The notes below the pieces were generated by a model that worked only from the letters and a program-made list of their open reading frames with translations, did not search any database and was not told where the DNA came from. The position numbers were made by a program, and so were the translations under genes. A stretch of DNA of 64,000 bases from Salinirubellus salinus (GTDB taxonomy: Archaea > Halobacteriota > Halobacteria > Halobacteriales > Haloarculaceae). Positions 5,909 to 63,456 of this stretch are shown here, one piece after another. The stretch spans positions 3,673,960-3,737,959 of the forward strand of contig NZ_CP104003.1 of the NCBI RefSeq assembly GCF_025231485.1, read 5' to 3'. Position 1 is the stretch's first letter. Every line of letters starts with the position of its first letter.

Positions 5909-5982
5909 AAGGTCGGAGTTGGTGTGCGCTCACGGGAGAAGGTATATGTCCGCCACCGCTCAAAAAGGAGGAGAAGCAGTCC

Positions 5983-6015
5983 GTGTCACCGACGAGAAAG
6001 GGTGTACAAGAGTGA
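5983..6015 (+). CDS. Possible 10-codon mini-ORF coupled to the next gene
   Basis: GTG TCA CCG ... GAG TGA encodes MSPTRKGVQE. A good Shine-Dalgarno-like GGAGGAG sits at 5967-5973, about 10 nt before the GTG, and a TATATG box is at 5943-5948. Its TGA overlaps the GTG start of the downstream gene (GTGA, 6012-6015). It may let ribosomes reinitiate on the main gene. The evidence is positional only. Confidence 0.3.
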   Translation: MSPTRKGVQE

Positions 6016-6896
6016 GTGGGAACGATACCGAGACAGACCCGGTCGACGAGCGCGCGACGGCGGCGACGCAACTCCTCGCCGGTGAGGCAGTGAAGACGAG
6101 CGGTCCCGACACCGAGCGGTCCCGGCGCCGTGGCCAGCGACGCGAGCGGGAATCCGGACGGACCGTCGCGGGTCAGGACCGCCGGTCGGTCGGCTGGGCC
6201 GTCGCGTTCGCCGTCCTCGGCCTCGCGGCGGCCGCCGTGTCGGCCGCCGGCCTCGTCGCTCCCGAGACGCAGGGTATCGTCGCCGCGCTGGGTGGGGCCG
6301 GCGTGTTCCTCTCGTTGCTGACGCTCGCGCTCTCGCCGACGACACACGACGGCCGCGAGACGGCGCTGTTCGAGCGTGTCGCAGGCAACTACGAACGGGC
6401 CGCGGCCGACCTCGGCCTCGCCACGGCGCACTACTACGTCCCGACCGGCGGCGAGCCGCCGGTCAGGCTGTTCCGTCCGCGCGAGGCCGACGCGCCGGTC
6501 CCGTCGGTCGACAAACTGTCCGCGACGTTCGTGGGCCGGCGCGACGCGGGTGGGCTGCTCGGGCTGGCGCTGGACCCGAGCGGGCTCGCCCTGCTGGATG
6601 AGGTGGACGCGGACCTGCCCGACGAGCCACTGACGCTCGCCGGCGAGCTCTGCGGGGCGGCGGTCGACCGGATGGAGGTTGCCGAGATCGCCCAGCCGAA
6701 CGTGGACGTCGACACCGGCCGGGCGACGGTGGCGTTCCGCGGGACGGCCTACGGCTCCATCGAGCGGTTCGACCACCCCGTCCGCTCGTTCGTCGGCGTC
6801 GGTCTCGCACTCGGGTTGGACCGGCCGGTCCGGACGGAGGTCGTCGAGACGCCGGACGGGGAGTTCCGCATCCGGTACACCTGGCAGACGAGGTGA
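6012..6896 (+). CDS. Membrane-associated hypothetical protein in glycan cluster
   Basis: 294 residues from the GTG at 6012 (VSGNDTETDPVDERATAATQLL). An in-frame ATG at 5946 lies inside the TATATG promoter-like box, so it is not used here. Two adjacent hydrophobic helices (about residues 59-107: VGWAVAFAVLGLAAAAVSAAGLV and IVAALGGAGVFLSLLTLAL) split a charged N-terminus from a 185-residue soluble domain with alternating strands (VRLFRPREADAPVPS, LALDPSGLALLDEVDADLP, TVAFRGTAYGSIERFDHPV). It resembles a recurrent haloarchaeal family found next to DUF1616 genes; no function is known. Transcription diverges from the DUF1616 gene across a short shared promoter region. Confidence 0.7.
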   Translation: MSGNDTETDPVDERATAATQLLAGEAVKTSGPDTERSRRRGQRRERESGRTVAGQDRRSVGWAVAFAVLGLAAAAVSAAGLVAPETQGIVAALGGAGVFLSLLTLALSPTTHDGRETALFERVAGNYERAAADLGLATAHYYVPTGGEPPVRLFRPREADAPVPSVDKLSATFVGRRDAGGLLGLALDPSGLALLDEVDADLPDEPLTLAGELCGAAVDRMEVAEIAQPNVDVDTGRATVAFRGTAYGSIERFDHPVRSFVGVGLALGLDRPVRTEVVETPDGEFRIRYTWQTR

Positions 6897-6926
6897 GGTG
6901 AGCGCGCTCGCTGCGCTCGACGGTAC

Positions 6927-7895
6927 TCAGACCCCCAGCGACTGCACCCGGCGTGCGAGCCGGTGGGTGGTCGTCCCGCCCGCGGCCGCGAAGAGGTACG
7001 GGTAGAACCGCGACTCCAGCGGGTAGGCCAGCACCGCCCGGAGGAAGTAACGCCGGGCCTCGGGGTAGTGACCGGTGGCGAACGCGTCGGTGCCGGCGCG
7101 GAACGCGGCCCAGCCCCGGAGGCGCCGGGCGGCCCGCCCCGAGAACTCGGGGGCGTGTTTCTCGACGAACCGCCGGTGGCTCTCGTCGGTCCGGTCGAAG
7201 CTCTCCGAGAGGCGGTCTGCCGAGGTGAAGTCGTACTCGACGAGCGGCTCAGGTAGGCGGACGAACCTGGTCACCCGCGAGAGCCGCAGGAACCAGTCGA
7301 GGTCCTCCCACGCCGGCATCGCTGCGTCGAACGGGTGCTCGCGGGCGAGGGCGGTCCGCACGCAGACGACCGACATCGAGCCGACGACGTTCCGGCAGGC
7401 GAGTTCACCCGTCAGGTCCGCGTCGGCCACGTCGGGCGGGACGTGCTCGCGCCGGCCGTCGGGCCGGAGTTCGACCGTGCCGGTGTAACAGAGGCCGGCG
7501 TCCGGGGCGGCCTCGAGAGCCGTGACCTGCCGGCCCACCTTCTCGGGGCGCCACGCGTCGTCGTCGTCGAGGAAGGCGACGTACGCCCCGCGGGCCGCCT
7601 CGACCCCCGTGTTCCGGGCCGCGCCGGCCCCCGAGTGGCCCCCCTCGCGGCGGTAGACGACTCGCTCGAGGGTGTCGGTGTCGAGGTGGGCGAGCAGGTC
7701 CACCGCGCGCTCGGCGGGGTTGTCGTCCACGACGACGAGTTCGAGCGGGCGGTAGGTCTGCGCGAGGACGCTCTCGACGGCTCGGACCAGCCCCTCGGGG
7801 CGGGAGTGGGTGGGGACGACGCAGGTGACGAGCGGTCGCTCGCCGCCGTCTCCGTCTCCGGCCCCGCTCTCGCCGTCCCGAGCGGCCCCGACCAT
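6927..7895 (-). CDS. Glycosyltransferase family 2
   Basis: 322 residues. After an acidic 20-residue leader comes a GT-A fold: LVTCVVPTHSRPEGLVRAV, the nucleotide-binding VVVDDNPAE, the GGHSGAGAARNTGVEAARGAYVAFLDDDD segment (DDDD being the DXD-type metal/donor motif), and the acceptor-side WEDLDWFLRLSR where Glu-Asp is the expected base. The C-terminal 80 residues (RAARRLRGWAAFRAG...) are helical and amphipathic, suggesting membrane association. It starts 1 nt after the FG-GAP gene, so the two are translationally coupled. It most likely adds a sugar to a surface glycan or lipid-linked intermediate; donor unknown. Confidence 0.9.
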   Translation of the reverse strand: MVGAARDGESGAGDGDGGERPLVTCVVPTHSRPEGLVRAVESVLAQTYRPLELVVVDDNPAERAVDLLAHLDTDTLERVVYRREGGHSGAGAARNTGVEAARGAYVAFLDDDDAWRPEKVGRQVTALEAAPDAGLCYTGTVELRPDGRREHVPPDVADADLTGELACRNVVGSMSVVCVRTALAREHPFDAAMPAWEDLDWFLRLSRVTRFVRLPEPLVEYDFTSADRLSESFDRTDESHRRFVEKHAPEFSGRAARRLRGWAAFRAGTDAFATGHYPEARRYFLRAVLAYPLESRFYPYLFAAAGGTTTHRLARRVQSLGV

Positions 7896-7896
7896 C

Positions 7897-9111
7897 TCAG
7901 CGCGCCTCGTTGTACCAGACGTCGACGTGCTGGTCCGGCTCGTAGGACTTGCCGAGGATGTCGAGTCGGCCGTCGCCGTCGACGTCGACCAGTTTCGCCT
8001 CGTGGGTGGCGACACCACGGGCGACCGTCCGCTCGTCGAACGTCCCGTCGCCGTTGCCGAAGAAGACGACGTGCTCGGGGTCCGCGTTCGTCCCCAGACC
8101 CATCTCCGCGACGTAGATGTCGAGGTTGCCGTCGCCGTCCACGTCGGCGACCTGGACCGTGTGGGGACAGAACATCTCCTCGCGCAGCGTGTGCATCTCC
8201 CACTCGCCGTCGACCCGGTCGAACCACGCGACACGGCCGGGGCGGTGCGGTTCGAGGTGCGGGCTGTCGCCCTCCGTGAGGACGATCTCCGGTTCGTCGT
8301 CGCCGTCGACGTCACCGACGGCGACGCGGGCCCAGTACCACTCCTCGACGAGGGTCTCGCGCTCCCAGTGGCCGTCGACCTGCTGGTAGACGTGCGGGCC
8401 GGCGACGAGCTCGTTCTCGCCGTCGCCGTCGAGGTCGGCGATGGCGAGGCCCTCCAGTCGCTCGCCCTCGTCGATGACGTGGCGGCACTCGGCGGGCCAG
8501 GGTTGCTGGGTCGGGTCCTCCGGGAGGTCGAGGTAGAACAGGATCTTCGACTCCTGTGAGGCGGCGACCAGCTCCATTTCGCCGTCGTTGTCGACGTCAC
8601 CGAACGCGATGTCGTGGTAGACCATGAACTCGTCGTGGATGGTGCGCCGAGTCCAGGTGTCGCGGGGGTCGGCCGGCTGTTCGTACCAGTAGAGGTTCCG
8701 GCCCCCCCAGCCCTGCGCGACGACGAGGTCGAGTCGGCCGTCGCCGTTCACGTCGAACAGGGCGTTGGCGAACACGCGCTCGTCGAGGCCACGGGAGATG
8801 GTGTGGCGCTTCCACTCGCCTCCGGTCGGGCCGGGGTTCTCGTACCAGAAGACGTAGTCCTCGAGGAACCAGAGCGCCCGCTGGAGGACGGGGAGGTTCC
8901 GCGAGACGCGGTCGCCGATGCCGGGGAGCGAGACGGGCAACCGGACCTCCTCGGCACCCATCCCGCCGACGACGAGGTCGGGGTAGCCGTTGCCGGTGAG
9001 GTCGGCCGGGAGACAGACCGACAGCCGACCGGAGGGCGGCGCGTCGTCGATGGTCTCGTGTCGGAACCGGAGGGGTATCTCCACGCTCGGTTCGGTGGGT
9101 GTCTGCATCAT
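7897..9111 (-). CDS. FG-GAP/VCBS-repeat beta-propeller protein
   Basis: 404 residues with about seven repeats centred on acidic calcium-binding loops: ADLTGNGYPDLVVGG, FDVNGDGRLDLVVAQ, GDVDNDGEMELVAAS, ADLDGDGENELVAGP, GDVDGDDEPEIVLTE, ADVDGDGNLDIYVAE and VDVDGDGRLDILGKS. This number fits a seven-bladed propeller. There is no signal peptide or membrane helix, although most FG-GAP propellers are extracellular. A TACTAATG box about 30 nt upstream supports the start (ATG 9111, or the next codon). It is coupled to the family-2 glycosyltransferase downstream. A carbohydrate-binding or scaffold role is inferred from the fold and context. Confidence 0.85.
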   Translation of the reverse strand: MMQTPTEPSVEIPLRFRHETIDDAPPSGRLSVCLPADLTGNGYPDLVVGGMGAEEVRLPVSLPGIGDRVSRNLPVLQRALWFLEDYVFWYENPGPTGGEWKRHTISRGLDERVFANALFDVNGDGRLDLVVAQGWGGRNLYWYEQPADPRDTWTRRTIHDEFMVYHDIAFGDVDNDGEMELVAASQESKILFYLDLPEDPTQQPWPAECRHVIDEGERLEGLAIADLDGDGENELVAGPHVYQQVDGHWERETLVEEWYWARVAVGDVDGDDEPEIVLTEGDSPHLEPHRPGRVAWFDRVDGEWEMHTLREEMFCPHTVQVADVDGDGNLDIYVAEMGLGTNADPEHVVFFGNGDGTFDERTVARGVATHEAKLVDVDGDGRLDILGKSYEPDQHVDVWYNEAR

Positions 9112-9237
9112 CGGTTTCAGGTTCCCCGTGTACGGACATTAGTAGGCACCGACAAACGGGGGTCGGACGCGGACGCGATCTCCGCCGGTGTCGACCGTCT
9201 CGGGGCCGTTACCCTCTGGATTCCGTGATTATTCGGC

Positions 9238-9247
9238 CTATATCTAA
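9238..9247 (+). promoter_or_regulatory. TATA box upstream of flippase mini-ORF
   Basis: CTATATCTAA lies in a locally AT-rich stretch, 30 nt before the GTG of the mini-ORF at 9273 but about 80 nt before the flippase ATG. For a leaderless transcript the first translated codon would therefore be the mini-ORF GTG and not the flippase start. Confidence 0.55.
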
Positions 9248-9272
9248 TACCCTCGGTGCCCCTCTGTAGAGC

Positions 9273-9329
9273 GTGAACTCCCCGTCCCGTCGTCAGCCCA
9301 CCGCCCCGTCCAGCGGAGACCGGCGATGA
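9273..9329 (+). CDS. Possible 18-codon leader mini-ORF coupled to flippase
   Basis: GTG AAC TCC ... CGG CGA TGA encodes MNSPSRRQPTAPSSGDRR. The GTG is 30 nt from the TATA box at 9238-9247, the leaderless distance. Its TGA overlaps the flippase start codon (ATGA, 9326-9329). The product is basic and Pro/Ser-rich, with no family. Translational coupling is the likeliest purpose if it is real. Confidence 0.35.
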   Translation: MNSPSRRQPTAPSSGDRR

Positions 9330-10831
9330 GTCCCCGTCGGTGGCTCCGAGCGCTACGGTCCGCGCTCACCCCCGGCGGGAGCGTGACCCGGCTCTCGCTG
9401 ACGAGCGGCGTCTGGATGGGGCTGACGAAGTTCGGCACCCGCGGCGTCCAGCTGGCGATGGTCGTCATCCTCGCGAACCTGCTGACGCCGACGGCGTTCG
9501 GTATCGCGGGCGTGGCGTTCATCGTCGCCAGCCTGCTGAACCGGTTCTCGCAACTCGGCATCGACGCCGCGCTCGTCCAGAACGTCGAGGAAGACGTCGA
9601 CCGCTACCTCGATACGGTGTTCGCGCTGAACGTGGCCCGCGGCGTGGTGCTCGCGGGCCTGCTCGTACTGGTGGCGCCGCTGGCCGCCCGCCTGTTCGAC
9701 ACGCCGATGGTCGCCGCCCTGCTGCCCGTGATGGCCATCAGTCCGCTCGCGGCCGGCCTGCGCAACCCCGGCCTGGTCTACTTCACGAAGGACCTGCAGT
9801 ACCACAAGCGGTTCCTCTACGAGACGAGTTCCAGCGTGATGCAGTTCGTCGTCGCCGTCGGCGTCGCGCTATACGAGCCGACGGTGTGGGCGCTCATCTA
9901 CGGGTTCGTCACCACGGGCGTCGTCTCGATGGTCGCCTCGTACCTCCTGCACGACTACCGGCCGAGCCTCGGTTTCGAGCGCGACCTCGCGGTCGAACTC
10001 GTCGGCTACGGCAAGTGGATGCTCGGCGCGCACGTCCTCAACTTCCTGATGGACGAGGGCGACGACGCACTCGTCGGCATCCTGCTGGCGCCGGCGGCGC
10101 TGGGGTTCTACCAGATGGCCCACCGCATCGGCAACACGCCCGCCACCGAGGTAACCCACGTCGTCTCCGACGTGACCTTCCCGGTCTACTCGAAGATACA
10201 GTCGGACCTCTCGGCGATCCGGACGGGACTGATGCGGGCGGTGCAGGTGTCGATGCTCGTGGCCGCGCCGCTCGCGCTCGGGATGGTCGCCATCGCGCCG
10301 ACGTTCGTCGAGGCGTTCCTCGGCGAGTCGTGGCTGCCGATGATCGTGCCGATGCAACTGCTGGCGCTCTATGGACTGCTCCACGCCTACTCCGCCTCGT
10401 TCGGCTCGGTCTGGAAGGCGCTCGCCCGGCCCGACTTCCTCACCAAGGTCCCGCTGGTCGTCCTCGTGTTCACGTTCGCCGGCATCTGGCCGGTGACGGA
10501 GGCCTACGGCATCGCCGGGACCGCGGCGTGGGTGCTCCTCGTCCGACTGCTGGTGGCGACGCCGCTCGACACCTACGTCACGGTTCGGATGCTCGACATG
10601 GGCGTGTTCCCGCTGCTCCGGGCCGCGGCGTACCCGACGACGGCGGCGGGGACGATGGCCGCGGCCGTCCTGCTCGTGCAGGACCGACTCGTGCTCGGGT
10701 CGTCGATGCTCGAGTTCGCCGTCCTCCTCGCGGTGGGCGTCCTGACGTACGCGGCGGCGGTCGCGCTACTGGAGACGCAACTCGGCTGGGGGCTCCGCGC
10801 GGAGGTACGCGAGGTCCGCCGGGCCATCTGA
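9326..10831 (+). CDS. Lipopolysaccharide/oligosaccharide flippase (Wzx-type, MATE-like)
   Basis: 501 residues, about 12-14 hydrophobic segments. The opening SGVWMGLTKFGTRGVQLAMVVILANLLTPTAFGIAGVAFIV is the signature start of the polysaccharide-biosynthesis flippase (MOP superfamily, Wzx/TuaB-like). A central NTPATEVTHVVSDVTFPVYSKIQSD loop matches family members that export repeat units. It should move lipid-linked glycan units across the membrane for assembly outside. The ATG overlaps the TGA of a possible 18-codon leader, and the TATA box is too distant for leaderless initiation at this codon. The sulfatase-fold gene follows 84 nt downstream with its own promoter. Confidence 0.9.
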   Translation: MSPRRWLRALRSALTPGGSVTRLSLTSGVWMGLTKFGTRGVQLAMVVILANLLTPTAFGIAGVAFIVASLLNRFSQLGIDAALVQNVEEDVDRYLDTVFALNVARGVVLAGLLVLVAPLAARLFDTPMVAALLPVMAISPLAAGLRNPGLVYFTKDLQYHKRFLYETSSSVMQFVVAVGVALYEPTVWALIYGFVTTGVVSMVASYLLHDYRPSLGFERDLAVELVGYGKWMLGAHVLNFLMDEGDDALVGILLAPAALGFYQMAHRIGNTPATEVTHVVSDVTFPVYSKIQSDLSAIRTGLMRAVQVSMLVAAPLALGMVAIAPTFVEAFLGESWLPMIVPMQLLALYGLLHAYSASFGSVWKALARPDFLTKVPLVVLVFTFAGIWPVTEAYGIAGTAAWVLLVRLLVATPLDTYVTVRMLDMGVFPLLRAAAYPTTAAGTMAAAVLLVQDRLVLGSSMLEFAVLLAVGVLTYAAAVALLETQLGWGLRAEVREVRRAI

Positions 10832-10915
10832 GTGACGTGCTCTCGCCCCGTCGTGTCGGCTTTCCCTCGGCTAACCGCTCCATAACTTTACTCGGTTCTC
10901 GCCTCTCGAATCACG

Positions 10916-12280
10916 ATGATCACCGACGCCACCACGGAGCGAGCGCGGAACGTCGTCCTCGTCACGTTCGACAGCGTCCGCGCCGACCACTGTGGGTTCG
11001 TCGACCCGGCGTCGTCGCTGACGCCGGAACTCGACGCCATGGCCGAGCAGGGCACCGCTTTCAGTCGGGCGGTGGCCTCCTCCTCACGGACCCCGACCTC
11101 CGTCCCGGAGCTGCTGACGGGCGTCCCGATGCCCCACCGCGACGCCGACTCGCAGACCGGCGAGATGGCCCGCATCCGCGAGCACGTCACCAGTTACGAG
11201 ACGGTGGCAGCCCGGTTCGCCGAGCGCGGCTACACCACCGCCGGCTTCTCCGCGAACCCGTGGACCGGCGACGGGACGGGCTTTCCCGACGCGTTCGAGC
11301 GGTTCGACCAACTCGACCAGGGTGGCGAGTACACCCGCCTCTACCGGACGCTGATGCCGTTCGTCACCGGCACCGCCGCGGGCGTCGTCGTCTACTACCT
11401 CGACTCGTGGCTCCGCAAGACCGGGAGCTTCTCGCAGTGGGAGGCGTTCGCCGAGGACCTGTTCGCCACCATCGACCGCCTGCCCGAACCGTACTTCGTC
11501 TGGGTGTTCCTGATGGACGCGCACAACCCCTACATCGTCCCGAAGCGCGACCGGGTGGAGAACTCCACGCTCGACATGTACTACGGGATGCTGCGCGGGA
11601 ACTCGCAGTTGCGTCACTCCTCGGGCGAGAGCTACCTCGCCGACGACCTCCCGCCGAGCGTCGAGAAGCGCGTGGTCCGGGCCTACCGTGACTCGGTCCG
11701 GTCGGTCGACCGCTTCGCCGGGGAACTCCGCCAGCGGGTCGACACGAGCGACACGAGCGTCGTCTTCCACGCCGACCACGGCGAGGCGTTCAAGGAACAC
11801 GGCACCTACGGCCACCAGAACGCCCTCTATCAGGAGAACGTCCACGTCCCGCTGCTGGTCTACGGGGCCGACGCCGAGGCGGGTCGGGTCGTCGAGGACC
11901 CCGTCTCGCTCCGGTCGATGCCGGACCTCCTGCTCTCGCTCGGGGCCGGCGAGGGGGTCCCCGTCGACGAACTGACGGCGGGGCCCGTCGTCTCGCGGAC
12001 CGCCTCGGGCGACACGCTCGCGGTGTCGACGCGCCGCTGGAAGTACATCGTCGGCCCCGACGGCGCCGAACTGTACGACCTCGAGGCGGACCCCGAGGAG
12101 CGACGGAACGTCGCGGACGAGCACCCCGAGGTGTGTGCCGACCTCGACCGCGACCTCGGGGCGTACCGCGCGACGGTGCCGGAACTCGACGCGGCGGCCG
12201 AGGCGGCGGCCGCGCGCGAGGACGACGACATCGGCGACGAACTCCGGAGCCACCTCCAGACGCTCGGATACGTCGACTGA
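10916..12280 (+). CDS. Sulfatase-fold (alkaline phosphatase superfamily) enzyme, Thr in nucleophile position
   Basis: 454 residues; a CTTTAC box about 30 nt upstream makes ATG 10916 a leaderless start. Metal-site motifs are present: VVLVTFDSVRADHCG (Asp19), then HADHGEAFKEHGTYGHQ with the Asp-His pair and a later His, and an LYDLEADPEERRNVADEHP C-terminal sulfatase signature. The nucleophile region reads SRTPTSVPELLTG, so by alignment to CxPxR...LLTG the formylglycine Cys is replaced by Thr59 and the Arg is missing. Thr is the nucleophile in the related LtaS/EptA phosphotransferases, so a phospho-group or phosphoglycerol transferase/hydrolase is as likely as a sulfatase. No signal peptide. 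It follows the flippase and has a relative at 62.1 kb. Confidence 0.8.
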   Translation: MITDATTERARNVVLVTFDSVRADHCGFVDPASSLTPELDAMAEQGTAFSRAVASSSRTPTSVPELLTGVPMPHRDADSQTGEMARIREHVTSYETVAARFAERGYTTAGFSANPWTGDGTGFPDAFERFDQLDQGGEYTRLYRTLMPFVTGTAAGVVVYYLDSWLRKTGSFSQWEAFAEDLFATIDRLPEPYFVWVFLMDAHNPYIVPKRDRVENSTLDMYYGMLRGNSQLRHSSGESYLADDLPPSVEKRVVRAYRDSVRSVDRFAGELRQRVDTSDTSVVFHADHGEAFKEHGTYGHQNALYQENVHVPLLVYGADAEAGRVVEDPVSLRSMPDLLLSLGAGEGVPVDELTAGPVVSRTASGDTLAVSTRRWKYIVGPDGAELYDLEADPEERRNVADEHPEVCADLDRDLGAYRATVPELDAAAEAAAAREDDDIGDELRSHLQTLGYVD

Positions 12281-12363
12281 CGGCCGCCCCGGGCCGCCGA
12301 GCCGGGTGGCCGCGCTCGCCGGAACGTCGCGGATTTATGAGGGCCGGGCCTCGCATTGACGGT

Positions 12364-13503
12364 ATGACTGAGGACACGGACCCGGTCGTGGTCGAGGCCA
12401 TCCGGACACCGCAGGGCAAGCGCGACGGCGTGTTCGCCGACGTGACCAGCGAGCAGCTGTCGGTGCCGCTCGTGGACGAGATACTGGCCCGGACCGGGTT
12501 GACCGGCGAGGACGTCGACGACGTGAAGTGGGGCTGTGCGCGCCCCGAGGGCGAGCAGGGCTCGAACATCGCCCGCGTCATCGCGCTCACCTCCGAACTC
12601 GGCGAGACCGTGCCGGGGACGACCGTCGACCGACTCTGTGCCTCCTCCGCGGAGGCCATCATGAGCGCGGCCGACTCCATCCGCGCCGGCTCGCGCGACT
12701 GCATCGTCGCCGGCGGCGTCGAGAACATGACCCGCGTCCAGCGGAAGGAGGAGATCGACGTCTACGAGGGCGTCCAGGCGCGCTACGACGTGGACGACCT
12801 CTGGATGGGGTCGACGGCCGAGGCCGTCGCCGAGCGCTACGACATCAGCCGCGAGGAGCAGGACGCCTACGGGGCACGCTCCCAGCAGCGTGCCGTCGCC
12901 GCCACCGAGGAGGAGAGGTTCGACGACGAGATACTCCCCATCCACAACGGCGAGGAACTCGTCGAGGTCGACGAGGGCCTGCGCCCCGGCACGACGAAGG
13001 AGTCAATCTCGGGGCTCCCGCCCGCGTTCCAGGAGGACGGCACGGTCACGGCGGCCACGTCGTCGCAGATAAGCGACGGCGCGAGCGCCCTGCTGGTCAC
13101 CTCGCGGGCGTTCGCCGACGAGCACGACCTCGACGTGCTCGCCGAGATCGGTGCGCACAACGTCGCCGGCGTGGACCCCGAGGTCATGGGTATCGGACCG
13201 GTTCCGGCCGTGGAGGGACTGATGGAACGCGCCGGCACCACCATCGAGGACTACGACCTCGTCGAGCTGAACGAGGCGTTCGCCTCGCAGACGCTCTACT
13301 GCCAGCGCGAACTCGGCATCCCGGACGACATCTTCAACGTGAACGGCGGGGCCATCGCCATCGGGCACCCGCTGGGCGCGAGCGGCGCGCGCCTGCCCGT
13401 GACGCTCGTCCACGAGATGCACGAGCGCGGCGCGGAACGTGGCCTCTCGACGCAGTGTGTCGGCTACGGACAGGGCGGCGCTATCGAGTTCTTCCTGCCG
13501 TAA
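12364..13503 (+). CDS. Thiolase family protein (acetyl-CoA C-acyltransferase)
   Basis: 379 residues. All thiolase signatures are visible: the acyl-enzyme Cys in DRLCASSAEAIMSA (Cys92), the NEAFASQ motif, GGAIAIGHPLGASGAR with the catalytic His, and the second catalytic Cys in QCVGYGQGGAIEFF. It catalyses thiolytic cleavage or condensation of acyl-CoA (beta-oxidation or acetoacetyl-CoA formation) in the cytoplasm. A GATTTATG box 25-30 nt upstream of ATG 12364 supports that start over upstream in-frame codons. It is a stand-alone gene convergent with the TrkA-type gene; it is metabolically unrelated to the surrounding glycan genes, though an acyl-CoA dehydrogenase lies at 38.9 kb. Confidence 0.93.
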   Translation: MTEDTDPVVVEAIRTPQGKRDGVFADVTSEQLSVPLVDEILARTGLTGEDVDDVKWGCARPEGEQGSNIARVIALTSELGETVPGTTVDRLCASSAEAIMSAADSIRAGSRDCIVAGGVENMTRVQRKEEIDVYEGVQARYDVDDLWMGSTAEAVAERYDISREEQDAYGARSQQRAVAATEEERFDDEILPIHNGEELVEVDEGLRPGTTKESISGLPPAFQEDGTVTAATSSQISDGASALLVTSRAFADEHDLDVLAEIGAHNVAGVDPEVMGIGPVPAVEGLMERAGTTIEDYDLVELNEAFASQTLYCQRELGIPDDIFNVNGGAIAIGHPLGASGARLPVTLVHEMHERGAERGLSTQCVGYGQGGAIEFFLP

Positions 13504-13514
13504 CGCCCCGGCCG

Positions 13515-14171
13515 TCAGGCCGCGTCGGCGCCGAACGCCGCCCGCGTCTCGTCGACGGCGTCCCGCTCGACGGCGACGGTCACGCGCCGCCCCGGCTCGA
13601 GGGTGGTCTCGCCGTCGGCCCGGTGGGTCCCGTCGACGGTGACGACCAGACACCCCTGCGGGAGCGCCGCGTCCGCGAGCGACCGGCCGACGACGGGGGC
13701 CTCCTCGCCCACGACGAGTTCGAGGACGTCCATCCCGCCGACGTGCTCGCGGACGGCGCTCCCCACGTCCGCCCCGAGCGCGTTCGCCGAGGCGGCGACG
13801 CTGGACGCGGTGACCAGTCGGACGTTCTCGAAGGACTCGCGGAACCCCTCGGGTTCGGTGCGCACCCGCGCGGCGAACCGGGCCTCCGGGACGAGCTCGC
13901 GGGCGACCACGAGCGCCTGCATGTTCGCCTCCCCGTCGGCGGTCAGCGCGCCGAACGCCGCCACGTCGCCCTCCAGCGCCCGCTCCAGTACCGGCGGGCT
14001 GGTCCCGTCGCCAGCCACCACCGTCAGTTCCACGTCCGACCGCTCGCGCAACCGCTCGCACTTCTCGGCGTCGCGTTCGACCAGTCGGACCTCGCGGCCC
14101 CGTGCGGCGAACAGTTCCGCCGTCCGGAAGCCGACCCGTCCGGCACCCACGATGACTATGGCTCCATCCAT
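13515..14171 (-). CDS. TrkA-type NAD-binding / RCK protein
   Basis: 218 residues. N-terminal Rossmann fold with IVIVGAGRVGFRTAELFAARG and the ribose-binding acidic residue in VRLVERDAEK, then the typical VVAGDGTSPPVLERA. This is the TrkA-N/RCK-N domain. The C-terminal part (VVGEEAPVVGRSLADAALPQGCLVVTVD) is a TrkA-C (RCK-C) domain. Such proteins gate potassium uptake or other cation channels in response to nucleotides. The start at ATG 14171 is chosen because the glycine-rich motif begins three residues later; a longer frame to 14210 adds only low-complexity residues. No channel subunit is adjacent, so its partner is unknown. Confidence 0.88.
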   Translation of the reverse strand: MDGAIVIVGAGRVGFRTAELFAARGREVRLVERDAEKCERLRERSDVELTVVAGDGTSPPVLERALEGDVAAFGALTADGEANMQALVVARELVPEARFAARVRTEPEGFRESFENVRLVTASSVAASANALGADVGSAVREHVGGMDVLELVVGEEAPVVGRSLADAALPQGCLVVTVDGTHRADGETTLEPGRRVTVAVERDAVDETRAAFGADAA

Positions 14172-14277
14172 GTGTGGGGGTAACACGCGCAGGTGACTAA
14201 TAGGTAACACGTCCGAAACCGGGCGGAGCGGGCCGGTGAGGAGCGAGTCGGGGGAGCGGGTCCAGACGCCGCCGCGG

Positions 14278-15336
14278 TCACTCGGTGAGGACGAGTTCGA
14301 GCGGGTGGTTCTGCTCGACGTCGAAGGCGATTCCGACCGAGAGGACGGTGCCGGCGGCGACGAACAGCACCGTCGTCAGCACGGCCGCGAAGAACCCCTC
14401 CACCAGCGTGAGCGGCAGGGCGACCGCGGCCACCGTCGCCAGCAGCGTCGCCAGCAGGCCGACGGTCCCGAACAGGTAACAGAGGACGGCGGGGTGGAAG
14501 TCGAGCACGAGGTAGCGGGCCTTCAGCCGGCGGACGAAGTTCCGCGCCAGCAGTGCCGACACCCGGGGGACGAACCGACGCAGGCGGATGCTGCTGCGTT
14601 CCTCGCCGTACACCGCCCGGTGGGGGACGTTCGCGACGCGCATCCCGTGGATGTTGAGCGTCGTGAGCGTGTCGTTGAGGAAGCCGTACTCGTCGTACAG
14701 CGACTCGTAGGGGATGCGCTCCAGCGTCTCCAGCGAGACGGCGGTGTAGCCGTTCTGCGAGTCGTTCATCTTCCAGTAGCCGCTGGCGAACTTCGTCATG
14801 ATGGTGAGCGCGGCGTTGCCGACGAAGCGGAACCCGCTCATCCCCTCGCGGGTGTCGCGGGTGCGCATCCGGTCGCCCTTCGCGTAGTCCGCCCGGCCGT
14901 CGACGACCGGGTCGATGATACGGTGGAGCTCCTCGGGCGCCATCTGCCCGTCACCGTTCATGACGGCGACGACGTCCATGCGGTCGCCGTGGGCGTGTCG
15001 GTAGCCGGTCTTGACCGTCGCGCCGTAGCCGCGGTTCCGGGCGTGCTTGATGCCGAGGACGAACGGCACGCTCGTCGCGTAGCCGCTCCCGTCGGTGACC
15101 ATCCCCTCGCCCGTGGTGGGGACGGGGACGGGGTCGTCTGTGGAGGGGGTCTCCACCCCCTCGACCTCCACGTCGTCGGCGTGTTCGAGGATCTCGTTCC
15201 AGGTCCCGTCGGTCGACCCGTCGTCGATGGCGTACACCCGGTCGACGAACTCGGGCATCGTCTCGATGACCCGCCCGACGAGACCCTCCTCGTTGTACGC
15301 CGTCACGACGACCCCGACTGTCTGGCCCTCGTACAT
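14278..15336 (-). CDS. Family-2 glycosyltransferase with C-terminal membrane helices (dolichol-phosphate sugar synthase type)
   Basis: 352 residues. GT-A domain: TVGVVVTAYNEEGLVGRVI, YAIDDGSTDGTWNEIL, RNRGYGATVKTGYRHA and VVAVMNGDGQMAPEEL (the DXD-like GDGQ). Two long hydrophobic helices follow at about residues 280-340 (VLCYLFGTVGLLATLLATVAAV and VLTTVLFVAAGTVLSVGIAF). This layout is that of polyprenyl/dolichyl-phosphate glucose or mannose synthases such as those feeding archaeal N-glycosylation. A ~25-residue insert after the first helix (VEGVETPSTDDPVPVPTTGEG) is unusual. A GGGAGGTCGGTGAG stretch just upstream provides a good ribosome binding site, so this gene seems to have a leader. Confidence 0.88.
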   Translation of the reverse strand: MYEGQTVGVVVTAYNEEGLVGRVIETMPEFVDRVYAIDDGSTDGTWNEILEHADDVEVEGVETPSTDDPVPVPTTGEGMVTDGSGYATSVPFVLGIKHARNRGYGATVKTGYRHAHGDRMDVVAVMNGDGQMAPEELHRIIDPVVDGRADYAKGDRMRTRDTREGMSGFRFVGNAALTIMTKFASGYWKMNDSQNGYTAVSLETLERIPYESLYDEYGFLNDTLTTLNIHGMRVANVPHRAVYGEERSSIRLRRFVPRVSALLARNFVRRLKARYLVLDFHPAVLCYLFGTVGLLATLLATVAAVALPLTLVEGFFAAVLTTVLFVAAGTVLSVGIAFDVEQNHPLELVLTE

Positions 15337-15657
15337 CGCTCACCGACCTCCCGCCCGTGCCGGGCGGCGCGCACCGGCGTGGGCACTCGCTCCGCCCGCC
15401 CCGACCCCGTCGTCGCTCCTGTACGTGTTCATGATTGGAACCTTTCCCGACGACGTAGAGGTCGTCTCGGGGTTTCGTTATGGAGTGTCTGCCGCCCGGT
15501 CCCCCACACGGCGGCGGGCGTCACCGAACGCGACCAGATGCAACCACCGCGTCGCCCCGCTCACCGTCGCTGCGTACCGACGACGGCGTCTCCGTGTAGT
15601 TAACGCCGCGTTTAGTCCCGAACTAACAAACTCTGCTCCCGCGCATCTCCGTAACCA
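15337..15657. other. Intergenic region without an identifiable gene
   Basis: A divergent promoter region between the minus-strand glycosyltransferase and the plus-strand mini-ORF/GT4 unit. It contains weak AT-rich boxes (TTTAGTCC at 15611-15618 and ACTAACAAA at 15622-15630). The latter lies about 30 nt before the ATG at 15658. I see no RNA gene or repeat in it. Confidence 0.5.
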
Positions 15658-15732
15658 ATGAGCGTCCCCCTGACGAGTCGGAACGAGACCGGCGGTGTGC
15701 ACGCGGGTGAGCCGCGCGGAGCGACGCGATGA
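15658..15732 (+). CDS. Possible 24-codon leader mini-ORF coupled to GT4
   Basis: ATG AGC GTC ... ACG CGA TGA encodes MSVPLTSRNETGGVHAGEPR followed by GATR. The ATG lies about 30 nt after an ACTAACAA box, the leaderless distance. The TGA overlaps the ATG of the family-4 glycosyltransferase (ATGA, 15729-15732). It has no recognisable homologue. It has the same length as the mini-ORF at 17057 but no obvious sequence similarity to it. Confidence 0.35.
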   Translation: MSVPLTSRNETGGVHAGEPRGATR

Positions 15733-17060
15733 CCGACGGCCGCCGGCTGGTCGTCGTCTCGCAGCACTTCCCTCCGGACAACAGCGGCCACGCCTCCCGC
15801 GTCGGCGACACGACGACGTATCTGGCCGAGGCTGGCTGGGACGTGGAGGTACTGGCACCGCCGCCGAGTTTCCCACACGGCGAGCACGAGCGCCGCTGGT
15901 ACCGGACCGAACGCGACAGCCACGGCGACGTCGGCGTCCGACGGCTCTGGGCGTGGCAACCGGCCGAGGCCGACCCGTCGACGCTGTCGCGGCTGGCCTA
16001 CTACCTCACGTTCGCCGTCCACGCGGCGCTCTGGCTCGCGCTCAACTTCCGCCGGTACGACGTGGTGCTGACGACCGACCCGCCCATCTTCACCGGGCTG
16101 GCGGGGTTCGTCCCCTCGTGGTTCGGCCGCAAGTGGGTCGTCGAGGTGCGCGACCTCTGGATCGACGCCTCCGTCTCGCTGGGGTTCCTCCGCGAGGGGA
16201 GCGTCTTCGAGCGGCTGAGCCGCGCCTTCCAGCGGGCGACGCTCCACCGCGCCGACCTCGTCGGGGTGACGACCGAGACGCTCGGTGAACGGCTGGCCGA
16301 GACGTACGGCGAGGGACTGGCGGCGAAGACCCGCGTCGTCCCGAACGGTGCCGACGTCGCCCGCCTCGGGACGCCGACCGAGCCGCGCCCCCACGACGAC
16401 GGCTCGCGGCCGACCCTCGTCTACGTCGGCAACATCGGCCACGCGCAGGACCTCGAGTCGTGCATCAGGGCGATGGCCCACCTCGAACACGACGCCGTCC
16501 TGCGGCTGGTCGGCGGCGGCGACGCGGTCCCGCACCTCCGCGAGGTGGTCGCCGAGACGGGGCTCGAGGACCGCGTGGAGTTCGTCGGGCAGGTCCCCCG
16601 CGAGGCGGTGCCGGACATCGTCCGGTCGGCGGACGTGGGGCTGGCCCCGCTCGTGAAGGACGAGGGACTCGCCTACGCGATGCCGACGAAGGTGTACGAG
16701 TACCTCGGTTGCGCCCGGCCGGCCGTCGTCACCGGCTGTGGCGAACTCGAGCGGTTCGTCGAGGCCTCGGGCGGGGGCCTGCTGGCCGAGAACACCCCAG
16801 AGGACATCGCGCGGGCCGTCGACGAACTGCTCGGTGACCACGAACGCCGGGTCCGGATGGGTCGCGAGGGGTACGCGTACGTCTGGGAGCACTACGACCG
16901 GCGCAACATCGCGCTGAACTTCGACCGCCACCTCTCGGCGCTCGTCGGGGTGGAGCCCTCCGCACCCGTCTCCGAGCGGTCGGCCCCGGAGGTACTGCCG
17001 GCGGCGACGGCCGACGAGACGGCGACCGAGAGCACGGCGTCGGAACTCCGGGCTCGATGA
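15729..17060 (+). CDS. Family-4 glycosyltransferase (WbuB-like)
   Basis: 443 residues in the GT-B fold. The N-terminal acceptor domain begins VVVSQHFPPDNSGHASRVGD (the HFPPD/GxA pattern of WbuB/WcaI-type GT4 enzymes) and contains DVVLTTDPPIF and VVEVRDLW. The C-terminal donor domain has LVYVGNIGHAQDLES, VGGGDAVPHLREVV, DVGLAPLVKDEGLAYAMPTKVYEYLGC (the E-x7-E-type nucleotide-sugar region). It probably adds a sugar to a lipid-linked or exopolysaccharide chain. Its stop overlaps the start of a second mini-ORF (ATGA), which in turn overlaps the heparinase-like gene, so the three are likely one translationally coupled unit. Confidence 0.92.
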   Translation: MTDGRRLVVVSQHFPPDNSGHASRVGDTTTYLAEAGWDVEVLAPPPSFPHGEHERRWYRTERDSHGDVGVRRLWAWQPAEADPSTLSRLAYYLTFAVHAALWLALNFRRYDVVLTTDPPIFTGLAGFVPSWFGRKWVVEVRDLWIDASVSLGFLREGSVFERLSRAFQRATLHRADLVGVTTETLGERLAETYGEGLAAKTRVVPNGADVARLGTPTEPRPHDDGSRPTLVYVGNIGHAQDLESCIRAMAHLEHDAVLRLVGGGDAVPHLREVVAETGLEDRVEFVGQVPREAVPDIVRSADVGLAPLVKDEGLAYAMPTKVYEYLGCARPAVVTGCGELERFVEASGGGLLAENTPEDIARAVDELLGDHERRVRMGREGYAYVWEHYDRRNIALNFDRHLSALVGVEPSAPVSERSAPEVLPAATADETATESTASELRAR

Positions 17061-17131
17061 GTCGCCAGTCACCCTCGCACGCCCGGAACGGCTATCCGCG
17101 TCGCTCGTGTCGACACGCGGTAGTGAGATGA
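17057..17131 (+). CDS. Possible 24-codon linking mini-ORF between GT4 and heparinase-like gene
   Basis: ATG AGT CGC ... GTG AGA TGA encodes MSRQSPSHARNGYPRRSCRH followed by AVVR. It overlaps the GT4 stop by ATGA (17057-17060) and overlaps the next gene's start by ATGA (17128-17131), so it bridges the 67-nt gap exactly. The product is very basic and Arg-rich, unlike the acidic proteome. That argues for a coupling device and against a functional protein. It could also be chance in GC-rich DNA. Confidence 0.3.
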   Translation: MSRQSPSHARNGYPRRSCRHAVVR

Positions 17132-19086
17132 CCGACGACGCACGCCTCTCGGGGCTCGTCGACCCGGCGAAACTCCCCCTGCTCTACCACACGGCCCGGA
17201 ACATGCACGTCCGGCAGTTGACCGGGGTCGCCGAGCGCAAGCTCAGACACGCCGTCGTCCCGCGCCTCCCCGTGGACTTCGACGCCCGCTACGAGCGGCA
17301 GGTGCCGGCCGAGACGACGGCGACGCCGGCGCCGCTCGCGGCGAACACGGCCACGCTCCGTGCGGCGCTCCCCGACTCGCTCCGCGCGACGTACCGCGAG
17401 CGGGCGACCGAGGTGGCCGCTGGCGCGGTGACGTTCGCCGGGCACACGGTCCAGGTCGAGGACGACGCGGGGGGCGTCGACTGGTTCGGCTCCGGCGTGA
17501 CCGAGCCACCGGCGCTCTACGCGCTGAAACTCAGGGGCTTCGAGTTCCTCCGGTACCTGTACCTCGGTCACGACGCCCCCGACGAGTGCCCCGACGCCGT
17601 CGAGGCGGCCCGGCGCTGGACCGAGTCGTGGGCCGAGAGCGAGGCCACCCGCGTCGGCGAACCGGGCTACCTCCGGGGAGCGTGGACACCCCACTCGGTG
17701 TCGTTGCGTCTGCTGAACTGGGCGCGGTTCTACGCGTGGGCCGACCTCGAGACGCACGACCGGGAGTTCGCGGCGCTCGTCCGCCACCAGCTGTGGAAGA
17801 ACGCCCGCGTGCTCGAGAACCACGTCGAGTACGACCTCGGGGGGAACCACCTGATAGAGAACGGCGCCGGCCTCGCCGTGGCAGGCGCGTTCCTCGACGA
17901 CGACGACCTGTGGGACCACGGGGTCCGCGTGCTCGTCGACGCCGCCGACCAGTTCCTCGCGGACGGCGGCCACTTCGAACTGAGTCCGATGTACCACGTC
18001 CTGACGCTGACGCGGTACCTCACCGTCCTCGACCTGTGTCGCGAGACGGGCCGCGAGGTCACCGGTGCGGTCCGGCGCGTCGCCACCGAGGGGACCCGCT
18101 TCCTCGCGGCCGTCGCCGGCCCGGACGGCCGCATCCCGCTGCTGAACGACTCGGTGTACGGGGAGGCGCTGCCGGCCGACGCCTGCCGCCGGTACGCCGA
18201 GGCGGTCGGCGTCGACCCGGACGTGGTCGCCGGCCGCGAGAGCGACCCCGCCGCGCTGGAGCCGTCGGGGCTCTACTGGCTCGGCTCGGACGAGGACCGC
18301 CTGCTGTTCGACGGGGGTCCCGTCGGCCCGCCGCACCTCCCCGCCCACTCGCACGACGACCTCCTCGCCGTGTCGCTCTGGGTCGACGGCCGGCCCGTCC
18401 TCACCGACACCGGGACGAAGTCGTACGTCGCGGGGCCGGCCCGGCAGCACGCCCGGAGCGTCGCGGCGCACAACACCGTCCAGTACGGCGACGTCGAACC
18501 CATCCCGGTCGGGGGGTCGTTCCTGATGGGCCGACGGGTCACGCCGACGGTCCGGGCGGGGGGTGACGAGGGTGTGGACTGGGTCGAGGGGACCTACCGG
18601 CGCGAAGGGGACGCTGGCGAGGGCTACCGGCACCGCCGGCGGGTGTTCTGCGGCGGCGAGTCCGACGCGTCGTGGTGGCTCGTCTGGGACCGCGTGACCG
18701 CCGAGGCGGCCCGGCCGGTCCGGAGTCGCCTCCACGTCGCGCCCGGTCTCGAGGTCTCGGCCGACACGGCCGGAGACGCACCCGAGGGGGCGCTGGTGGT
18801 CCGCCCGGTGGACGCGGCCGCGGACACGGCGCTGGCACACCTCGTCCCGGTCGGGGCCGAGGACGTACACGTCGGGTGGAGCCCCTCCTACCCCGCGTTC
18901 GGCCGGGAGCGCGAGCGGCCGTCGGTCACGCTCCGGGCCGACGGGCGGGACGTCTCGATGGGCGTCCTCGTCTCGACGCGGCCGCTCCACTCGGTCGGCG
19001 TCGGCCGCGAGCGGGGGACGGCGAGCGAACTCCGCGTGGACGGGTCGGTCACCCGACTCCCGCGGGTGGGGCCGGCCGGCGAGTGA
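17128..19086 (+). CDS. Heparinase II/III-like polysaccharide lyase
   Basis: 652 residues from ATG 17128; an in-frame GTG at 17107 is the alternative. The N-terminal alpha/alpha-toroid (residues about 100-330) includes YDLGGNHLIENGAGLAVAGAF and HFELSPMYHVLTLTRYL, the Asn-His and Tyr-His motifs that hold the catalytic residues in heparinase II/III (PL12/PL21-type) lyases. A beta-sandwich follows with HSHDDLLAVSLWVDGRPVL and DTGTKSYVAG (His and Asp of the family's metal site). No signal peptide is seen, so it may act on a cytoplasmic intermediate or be exported by another route. In bacterial and archaeal exopolysaccharide clusters such genes accompany glycosyltransferases and may trim chains. 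Confidence 0.87.
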   Translation: MTDDARLSGLVDPAKLPLLYHTARNMHVRQLTGVAERKLRHAVVPRLPVDFDARYERQVPAETTATPAPLAANTATLRAALPDSLRATYRERATEVAAGAVTFAGHTVQVEDDAGGVDWFGSGVTEPPALYALKLRGFEFLRYLYLGHDAPDECPDAVEAARRWTESWAESEATRVGEPGYLRGAWTPHSVSLRLLNWARFYAWADLETHDREFAALVRHQLWKNARVLENHVEYDLGGNHLIENGAGLAVAGAFLDDDDLWDHGVRVLVDAADQFLADGGHFELSPMYHVLTLTRYLTVLDLCRETGREVTGAVRRVATEGTRFLAAVAGPDGRIPLLNDSVYGEALPADACRRYAEAVGVDPDVVAGRESDPAALEPSGLYWLGSDEDRLLFDGGPVGPPHLPAHSHDDLLAVSLWVDGRPVLTDTGTKSYVAGPARQHARSVAAHNTVQYGDVEPIPVGGSFLMGRRVTPTVRAGGDEGVDWVEGTYRREGDAGEGYRHRRRVFCGGESDASWWLVWDRVTAEAARPVRSRLHVAPGLEVSADTAGDAPEGALVVRPVDAAADTALAHLVPVGAEDVHVGWSPSYPAFGRERERPSVTLRADGRDVSMGVLVSTRPLHSVGVGRERGTASELRVDGSVTRLPRVGPAGE

Positions 19087-61579: not shown

Positions 61580-62092
61580 CCTTCGACGCCCCCAGTGGCA
61601 ACCACCGCGCTGGGTGCGTGACTGTCCGTCTCGGTGCTCGACTGACCGCGTACGTGGTGTGGAATCTGCATAGACTCTCGTACCTCCACCCGCCCCACCG
61701 GTGCCACCGTCGCGCACCGGGCTACGCCGAGCGGGGATAGTGGATTATTGACAATTGGACGCATAGGTAGTTATCCATTATTTGATGAGTGTTCCGTCAT
61801 CGTATCAGGTAATATCTCTGTTACGAGATGATGCCCGACAAAACCACACTACTGGGGTCCATCTTCAAGAACGGGAGAGTGTGTCAGGGTAGTGATTAAA
61901 GATGCAGAACTCGGGGGCGGAGCGCCTTTCTCCCGTCTGGTGGACGAGGATAGACTGTCGATAACTCGCGGGGTTAACGGCGGTAAGGAGAGTCTACTGT
62001 CCTCCACGAGCGGTCCACCGACCAGGCACCCGGAGACGTCGGGGGAAGTTCGAGGGTCCTAACAATAGGTGTGGGACGGGCAGTGTAGCGGA
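61580..62092. other. AT-richer intergenic region between CHAT module and glycan genes
   Basis: 513 bp. The stretch 61740-61900 (TGGATTATTGACAATTGG, GTTATCCATTATTTGATG) is clearly richer in A/T than the rest of the window. A 35-codon frame (61785-61892, MSVPSSYQVISLLRDDARQN...) lies there with no supporting features. TAAC/TTAACGG elements follow to 61980. No tRNA, IS end or attachment repeat was found by eye. It could be a remnant of past integration or a regulatory zone. Confidence 0.5.
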
Positions 62093-62146
62093 ATGCGTAC
62101 GACGACCCGCACCGCCGACTGGCAGGAACTGTGGTGGGACCCATGA
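62093..62146 (+). CDS. Possible 17-codon leader mini-ORF coupled to sulfatase-fold gene
   Basis: ATG CGT ACG ... GAC CCA TGA encodes MRTTTRTADWQELWWDP. The TATA-like CCTAACAATAGG (62058-62069) is about 29 nt upstream, the leaderless distance. The TGA overlaps the ATG of the downstream gene (ATGA, 62143-62146). Three Trp in 17 codons is unusual, so a Trp-responsive leader is conceivable, but no attenuator hairpin is clear. Confidence 0.35.
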   Translation: MRTTTRTADWQELWWDP

Positions 62147-63456
62147 CCGACGGGCGGCCGAACGTGGTTCTCGTCTCCATCGACAGTCTCAGGGCCGACC
62201 ACTGCGGCTACGTGGGTGCCAGCCCGGAGTCCGGACTGACCCAGACGCTCGACTGTCTCGCCGCCGACGGTGTCGCGTTCCGGAACGCCATCGCGCCGGG
62301 GCCACAGACCTTCTCGTCGATGCCAGCCACGTTCACCGGGGTCCCGCGAGCGCCGGCCGCGGTCGAACGCCACGGGGACGCCTACGGCTGGGAACGCCGA
62401 CTCACCACCATCGCGACGCACCTCGAGCGGTACCCCTCGCTCGCCGAGCGGTTGCACGATCGGGGGTACACGACCGCGGCGCTCACCCCGAATCCGTGGA
62501 CGTCGACCGCCGCTCAGTTCGAAGCCGGGTTCGACCGGTTCCTCGACCGATCGGCGACCGGCCAGCATAGCCGTCTCTCGAACTTCATATCACGAATCCC
62601 ACAGGTCGACGTCGACACCAAGCCGCTGGAACTGGGGCTGAACATGTTGACCAACCAGTCGTTCTTCTCGAACTGGGAGTCGTTCTACGACGACCTGCTG
62701 GACCTTCGCGCGGGGCTCCGAGAGCCGTACTTCCTCTGGGTGTTCCTCATGGACACGCACATCCCGTATATCACCAGGCGAGCCCATCGCCAGGAGAACT
62801 CGGTGCTCGAGATGTACTACGGCGTTCTCAGGTCGGAGGGAGCGATGCGCGGCCGTGCCGAGTCGGTCCCTCCCTCCGCGGTCGGACCGCTCGAACGGAG
62901 CTACCGGGACACCGTCCGTGCCGTCGACGCGTTTCTGGCTCGCCTCCGGTCGGACCTCGCGGCGGATGACCCGGTCTGGGTCGTCCACTCAGACCATGGT
63001 GAGTCGCTCGGGGAGCACGGCAACTGGGGCCACCACCACCGAAATGTCTACGAGGAGAATCTACACGTCCCCTTCGTCGTCGCCAACGCTGGCGTCCAAG
63101 AGGTGGTGGACGAACCTGTATCGCTGACGGCTGTCCCGGACCTCGTCGAGACGCTCGCCCGCGGCCGCCAGTTCGTGCCGAGAGCGATGACGTCGCCGTT
63201 CGTGTTCGCGAGTAGCGAGTGTGGACGCTTCCGAACGGTTCGCGGGCGTCGGTTCAAGTACGTGGACGGGGACGGCGACGCGGCCCTCTACGACCTGTCG
63301 AACGACCCCGACGAACGCCGGGACGTCGCTCCCTCGTTCCCGGCAGTCGCCCGCGAACTCCGCCGTCACCTGGACGGGGTCGAGCGCCACCGGTCCGAAC
63401 AGGACCGCATCGAGCGCGCGGCGGCCGTCGCGGCGGCGGAAGACCCGACCGCGTGA
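62143..63456 (+). CDS. Sulfatase-fold enzyme (second copy), Thr in nucleophile position
   Basis: 437 residues from ATG 62143; GTG at 62131 is an alternative. VVLVSIDSLRADHCGYV carries the first metal ligand (Asp14), WVVHSDHGESLGEHGNWGHHH the later Asp-His pair and His, and ALYDLSNDPDERRDVAP the C-terminal signature. The nucleophile zone APGPQTFSSMPATFTG again has Thr (Thr56) where the sulfatase formylglycine Cys belongs and lacks the CxPxR Arg. Blocks YFLWVFLMDTHIPYI, NSVLEMYYGVLRSEG and YEENLHVPFVV match the enzyme at 10.9 kb, so they are paralogues. A phospho-group-transferring or hydrolysing role on glycan is likely. Confidence 0.8.
   Translation: MTDGRPNVVLVSIDSLRADHCGYVGASPESGLTQTLDCLAADGVAFRNAIAPGPQTFSSMPATFTGVPRAPAAVERHGDAYGWERRLTTIATHLERYPSLAERLHDRGYTTAALTPNPWTSTAAQFEAGFDRFLDRSATGQHSRLSNFISRIPQVDVDTKPLELGLNMLTNQSFFSNWESFYDDLLDLRAGLREPYFLWVFLMDTHIPYITRRAHRQENSVLEMYYGVLRSEGAMRGRAESVPPSAVGPLERSYRDTVRAVDAFLARLRSDLAADDPVWVVHSDHGESLGEHGNWGHHHRNVYEENLHVPFVVANAGVQEVVDEPVSLTAVPDLVETLARGRQFVPRAMTSPFVFASSECGRFRTVRGRRFKYVDGDGDAALYDLSNDPDERRDVAPSFPAVARELRRHLDGVERHRSEQDRIERAAAVAAAEDPTA

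Follow-up and report, generated by a model that had tools for sequence, protein, structure and literature searches.

In mycobacteria, leaderless transcripts begin with small ORFs whose stop codon overlaps the next start (RTGA) above expectation (Shell et al. 2015, PMC4633059). That class is bacterial and was demonstrated by RNA-seq and ribosome profiling, whereas the present analysis works from sequence alone; the accessible part of the report (PMC4633059) ties it neither to a specific promoter box nor to glycan genes. In Haloferax volcanii, gene pairs translated by termination-reinitiation (PMC6728339, PMC10666635) have the same ATGA/TGATG overlap, tight coupling and very short working distance that are of interest here, and in reporters reinitiation was lowered at a distance of 13-14 nt and no longer occurred at 22-23 nt (PMC10666635). 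These pairs couple two full genes, while in our case the first cistron is a short, apparently leaderless frame, seemingly without a peptide function. Long 5′ UTRs of H. volcanii also hold small ORFs (15-31 aa), among them one in the leader of the glycan flippase gene agl15 (PMC4983044), but those leaders measure 150-250 nt and neither a systematic stop-start overlap nor a shared box was described. A synthetic leaderless bicistronic design in Corynebacterium glutamicum uses a coupled leaderless fore-cistron to shield expression from the context around the start of the gene of interest (PMC10367133), as might happen here, but it is engineered and bacterial.

Mini-ORFs and the genes behind them

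The window, i.e., the whole 64,000-nt stretch that was analysed (C1:3673960-3737959), lies in the 4.38-Mb genome of Salinirubellus salinus (GC 69%). The initial annotation had listed five mini-ORFs, each ending in a TGA that overlaps the start of the next gene. When re-read from the sequence, all five were open at their coordinates, and the claim was borne out at each of them with an overlap of 4 nt (GTGA at 6012; ATGA at 9326, 15729, 17128 and 62143).

5983-6015 (+), 10-codon GTG frame before the gene at 6012, probably incidental; GTGA at 6012, promoter score -7
9244-9249 (+), CTAATA, candidate promoter box of the flippase upstream ORF (uORF), 29 nt 5′ of the GTG at 9273; weaker than the TAACAA sites
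9273-9329 (+), uORF of the flippase, 18 codons, GTG start; TGA overlaps the flippase start (ATGA)
9326-10831 (+), polysaccharide flippase gene (Polysacc_synt_3; Pfam PF13440)
15624-15629 (+), TAACAA box of the GT4 uORF, 34 nt 5′ of the upstream ATG at 15658
15658-15732 (+), uORF of GT4, 24 codons, ATG start; TGA overlaps the GT4 start (ATGA)
15729-17060 (+), GT4-family glycosyltransferase gene, 443 aa (Pfam PF13692/PF00534)
17057-17131 (+), putative relay mini-ORF, 24 codons, ATG start; ATGA overlaps with both the GT4 stop and the heparinase start
17128-19086 (+), heparinase II/III-like gene (Pfam PF07940)
62060-62065 (+), TAACAA box of the sulfatase uORF, 33 nt 5′ of the upstream ATG at 62093
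62093-62146 (+), uORF of the sulfatase, 17 codons, ATG start; TGA overlaps the sulfatase start (ATGA)
62143-63456 (+), sulfatase-like gene, N-terminus MTDGRPNVVLVSIDSLRADH; 42% identity to the Pfam-supported sulfatase at 10916

The GT4 gene could be extended upstream in frame by ~6 codons at most (open frame 449), and a Pfam search with the gene at 6012 returned no match. Two mini-ORFs are indeed exactly 24 codons long, as had been pointed out, but we regard the agreement as coincidence because orthologous and box-led uORFs span 10-57 codons. That the frame at 17057 joins two genes through ATGA at both ends can be read directly from the sequence. Three mini-starts had also been described as lying ~30 nt from the promoter box; this description is accurate for 15658 (34 nt) and 62093 (33 nt) and fits 9273 only roughly (29 nt, CTAATA).

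A TAACAA box at a fixed distance

Across haloarchaea, 22/27 short ORFs whose ATG lies 31-36 nt after TAACAA ended at a gene start, compared with 12/103 at other distances (p = 6e-12; the loci counted are partly related and not fully independent). With all loci of the first sighting excluded, the held-out counts were 12/17 and 8/97 (p = 1e-7), and TTACAA behaved similarly (6/11 vs. 2/92). Among 30 hexamer permutations, TAACAA ranked first for the architecture of uORF plus gene, and only self-overlapping hexamers came close behind. The box-to-ATG spacing peaks sharply at 32 nt and is mostly 32-34 nt. Stops of the TAACAA set fall between -4 and +8 of the gene start (+1 in 14/22), so that this set shows the overlap or very short stop-start distance typical of termination-reinitiation.

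The canonical haloarchaeal leaderless promoter likewise sets the first start codon ~30 nt away. Aligned TAACAA sites nevertheless keep only an A/T-rich signal at -34 to -26; the -10 TA is absent, and the full canonical set of BRE, TATA at -29 to -26 and -10 TA was not found at them. A model of the canonical type, trained on first-in-unit genes (BRE near -34, TATA at -29 to -26, TA at -11/-10), scored 1.1 at 15658 and -4.1 at 62093. The same hexamer also occurs 32-34 nt before ordinary gene starts. In the genome itself, 7 of the 12 TAACAA-N25-28-ATG sites lie in a total of 96 kb of glycan region (p = 2e-9), and three of these seven open long ORFs directly. Across whole related genomes the pattern was not enriched over a reversed-pattern control, and TAACAA is therefore informative only together with its gene context. 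TAACAA is probably a shared, non-canonical promoter box which could act as a core promoter or as an activator site. A literature search for TAACAA in archaea, judged by titles and abstracts, yielded no paper that was recognisable as dealing with such a promoter. Just past the window (L177, G000:C1:3738001-3758000), further TAACAA boxes at 10990(+), 15500(+) and 15196(-) each lead a uORF; the genes behind these uORFs encode a DegT aminotransferase, a DUF1616 protein and a hexapeptide transferase.

Based on this arrangement, we infer a transcription start, translation of the uORF and reinitiation. At 15658 and 62093, and probably at 9273, the transcript would start at or a few nt from the start codon of the mini-ORF, with which the promoter spacing is consistent; a transcript starting there would have its mini-ORF translated by leaderless initiation, as we propose. 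The ribosome would then terminate at the stop that overlaps or abuts the start of the glycan gene and reinitiate at that start. In this glycan cluster, the promoter would be marked by TAACAA 31-36 nt before the first ATG, which may open the gene itself or a uORF. Overall, we consider it likely that leaderless uORFs behind a shared box deliver ribosomes to glycan genes by termination-reinitiation, with relays inside operons. The case for leaderless coupled uORFs appears strong at 15658 and 62093.

It could also be that the gene is translated de novo from its leader via a Shine-Dalgarno sequence, and that the 5′ ATG is merely part of the transcription start signal. A GGAG stands ~12 nt before both the GT4 and the flippase starts, and SD-like motifs were detected at 9/22 uORF-led genes, the proportion being 6% among leaderless genes and 53% among operon-internal ones; in this respect uORF-led genes are nearer to operon-internal than to leaderless ones. 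We nonetheless hold this explanation to be unlikely, as it fails to account for the frame that stops at the gene start in 22/27 loci, and the Haloarcula GT4 starts carry no such motif.

Frequency of the bare pattern and of promoter-linked uORFs

With regard to chance, few stops occur in GC-rich DNA, and any gene starting at NTGA may gain an upstream start codon in frame. Genes called by script (including their starts) in 1.26 Mb of the genome had NTGA starts in 38% of cases. A frame of 10-24 codons ending at NTGA preceded 129/400 of these genes (32%), compared with 104 ± 10 (26%) after dinucleotide shuffling, and an equivalent frame was found before 22% of non-NTGA genes. The bare ATGA mini-ORF is thus weak evidence, near the chance level, and we rejected its count as evidence because the excess over shuffling is small. 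The initial annotation had warned that GC-rich DNA makes such frames by chance and had suggested a genome-wide count against shuffled controls. Its caution was justified for the bare pattern, and the count gave a divided answer: a weak excess for bare ATGA mini-ORFs and a strong enrichment for those linked to a promoter. An absence of enrichment, which the initial annotation had named as refuting its reading, is therefore not what is seen when promoter position is taken into account.

For this second class, we surveyed 2.06 Mb (about half of the genome) with the canonical leaderless promoter model. Of the out-of-frame upstream ATGs that scored as leaderless, 21/29 had a stop no more than 8 nt to either side of the gene start, compared with 121/657 (18%) of the others (p = 1.2e-9). 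Frames ending exactly at NTGA made up 7/14 in the discovery stretches and 7/15 in independent replication stretches, compared with 10-13% of non-promoter ATGs; in the discovery set, the result for GTG uORFs was weaker than that for ATG uORFs. The same test in relatives had a tiny sample (3/5 in G154, and almost no informative cases in G001). This genome-wide class uses canonical promoters and is not limited to glycan genes. As in mycobacteria, stop-start overlap exceeds chance here, in both the canonical-promoter set (21/29 vs. 121/657) and the TAACAA set (22/27 vs. 12/103).

Chance suits the frame at 5983 well. It leaves unexplained why the frames are tied to promoter spacing, why their positions are conserved in orthologues and why the box is shared, and for the mini-ORF class it is already refuted by the promoter-linked enrichment; as a general account we rate it as quite improbable. 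At 5983, the GTG has a promoter score of -7 and the predicted transcription start of the gene at 6012 lies near 5972-5973, ~10 nt upstream of it. No orthologue was informative about a uORF at this site, the one homologue of the 6012 gene (L276) being too distant to judge. Termination-reinitiation, which had been suggested for all five mini-ORFs, is unsupported at 5983 and the suggestion was dropped there. It was retained for 15658 and 62093, where the TAACAA box is shared, the spacing fixed and the orthologues alike; it seems plausible at 9273, and at 17057 it is supported in a different form, as a relay within an operon and with no promoter of its own.

Orthologous loci

Comparisons across genera demonstrate that the anatomy recurs with its spacing and enrichment, and that in one clade the peptide is unconstrained. 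Relatives of GT4 (~50-58% protein identity) show a box followed after ~33-37 nt by the ATG of a uORF, which is 24-53 codons long and stops near the GT4 start; in Haloarcula, Halogeometricum, Haloarcula salina and others, the orthologous uORF stops at -5 to +8. Eleven GT4 loci, either named or from the window, have a box-placed ATG (TAACAA, CTAATA and variants). Ten of them have uORFs ending at -5, +1 or +5; at the remaining locus the box-placed ATG is the GT4 start itself. At other loci, such as those of Halorussus, Natronomonas and Halovenus carboxidivorans, a long ORF precedes GT4 and stops near the GT4 start, and in some orthologues the box or the uORF is absent. Among box-bearing orthologues the length and peptide of the GT4 uORF vary and the stop position is kept.

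Substitutions in the Haloarcula uORFs are distributed over the codon positions as 45/44/41, unlike those of the GT4 gene, which are biased to the third position. Since the uORF substitutions are even in this way, it appears to be the open path that is kept in Haloarcula and not the peptide. This preservation of linkage over peptide is also a feature of the mycobacterial class. Haloarcula GT4 starts (L037-L055, ATGACGACTGAC) carry a TGA in each of the two other frames (+1 and +8), and uORFs of either frame therefore end there. By our reading, the peptide would be largely irrelevant, and what is maintained would be an open route between the ATG set by the promoter and the start of the gene.

The other sites gave similar results. 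Flippase homologues in L004 and L025 have ATG uORFs that match the length and position of that in the window (-53 to +1), those in L005, L008, L011 and L028 are similar, and the uORFs of the flippase homologues end at +1. The canonical promoter score at 9273 is 2.3, a value reached by 1.3% of random intergenic positions. Given its GTG start, its diverged box and a uORF conserved in homologues, we hold this site as a coupled uORF with moderate confidence. In sulfatase orthologues (L062, L064, L065 and L067), uORF stops fall at +1, +5 or +8.

For the heparinase gene, the GT4 stop overlaps or almost touches its start in most orthologous pairs. In the window the gap is 67 nt and is bridged by the 24-codon mini-ORF at 17057; in L098 the gap is bridged by a mini-ORF of 14 codons. 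A relay would be needed across 67 nt because reinitiation in H. volcanii is abolished at 22-23 nt (PMC10666635), and mini-ORFs of this type may act as operon relays over gaps beyond the reach of reinitiation. There is good support for this role at 17057. In a generic test of operon gaps, ATG frames bridged 12/119 gaps before non-leaderless genes, compared with 7.5 ± 1.4 after shuffling and 1/307 before leaderless genes, and we consider this excess suggestive. Within 17093-17128, the canonical model gives a score of 5.8 at 17121, ~7 nt before the heparinase ATG. An internal start predicted near 17121 is possible, as an alternative to heparinase expression through the relay only.

Bacterial leader peptides precede biosynthetic genes. 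The uORFs found here also sit before biosynthetic genes, and they could be attenuators that mainly sense conditions (by peptide stalling or codon supply) and repress the gene, the coupling being incidental. Neither regulatory codon runs nor a conserved peptide, as expected of an amino-acid attenuator, were found in these uORFs: their peptides are unrelated and their lengths vary from 10 to 57 codons. Considering also that codon positions are unconstrained in Haloarcula and that the recurring feature is the stop at the gene start, we find attenuation very unlikely.

The least credible explanation is that the mini-ORFs are genuine small protein genes forming the first cistrons of operons, which does apply to some of the coupled cases of the genome-wide list (e.g., a protein resembling ribosomal protein L39e and a CxxC protein of 52 aa), but most promoter-linked uORFs in those 2.06 Mb have negative coding scores and the peptides of the glycan-gene uORFs are not conserved. 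The two small genes just named, both leaderless and NTGA-coupled, were seen in L218 (gene at 6450; L39e-like) and L124 (gene at 378-935; the 52-aa CxxC protein, uncalled).

Annotated exopolysaccharide-type clusters

We also inspected four annotated clusters (Haloarcula hispanica pHH400, Haloferax mediterranei pHME505, Halobellus limi and Halobaculum), which contain 32 TAACAA boxes. An ATG follows at 31-36 nt in 18 cases, namely six annotated starts and 12 upstream ATGs. For six of the 12 uORFs the stop lies no more than 9 nt from the annotated start, for two others it is at +10 and +14, and together these eight span -8 to +14. The remaining four were resolved by eye, after the test: two end beside an in-frame upstream start and two reach a second mini-ORF that leads to the gene. 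In the annotated clusters alone, the near-stop test was not significant (7/13 vs. 3/10, p = 0.24). Several instances each of the box-led layout were found in H. mediterranei and H. hispanica, both of which are laboratory strains.

In two genes the uORF stops at an in-frame ATG ahead of the annotated start, by 75 nt in HAH_RS18085 (DUF1616; L294 12982) and by 27 nt in DV707_RS16215 (GT2; L296 34171-35133). This suggests that both genes are annotated too short and that their starts are mis-annotated. Two glycosyltransferase genes, DV707_RS16145 of Halobellus limi (L296 16763) and HAH_RS18075 of H. hispanica (L294 10766-11905), seemingly have two serial mini-ORFs between box and gene. A PadR-family regulator gene in the Halobellus limi cluster (L296 15941-16225) starts exactly 32 nt after TAACAA, and we consider it a candidate regulator of the box regulon.

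A broader proposal, to which we give somewhat less than an even chance, is that TAACAA is a dedicated non-canonical element (served by an alternative TFB or an activator) of a haloarchaeal exopolysaccharide regulon and fixes a leaderless start 32-34 nt downstream. Horizontally shuffled glycan genes would be plugged in behind it via disposable mini-ORFs (in some cases two in a row) whose only role would be to bring ribosomes to the start of the gene.

Implications

Within the searchable literature, the archaeal occurrence of this arrangement as a class, its link to TAACAA and its concentration in glycan clusters look new. If our reading is true, archaea would use leaderless fore-cistrons for ribosome delivery, as mycobacteria do and as synthetic designs exploit. 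Annotated gene starts would be corrected, and TAACAA followed after 32-34 nt by an ATG would provide a sequence handle on how exopolysaccharide and surface glycan clusters are controlled.
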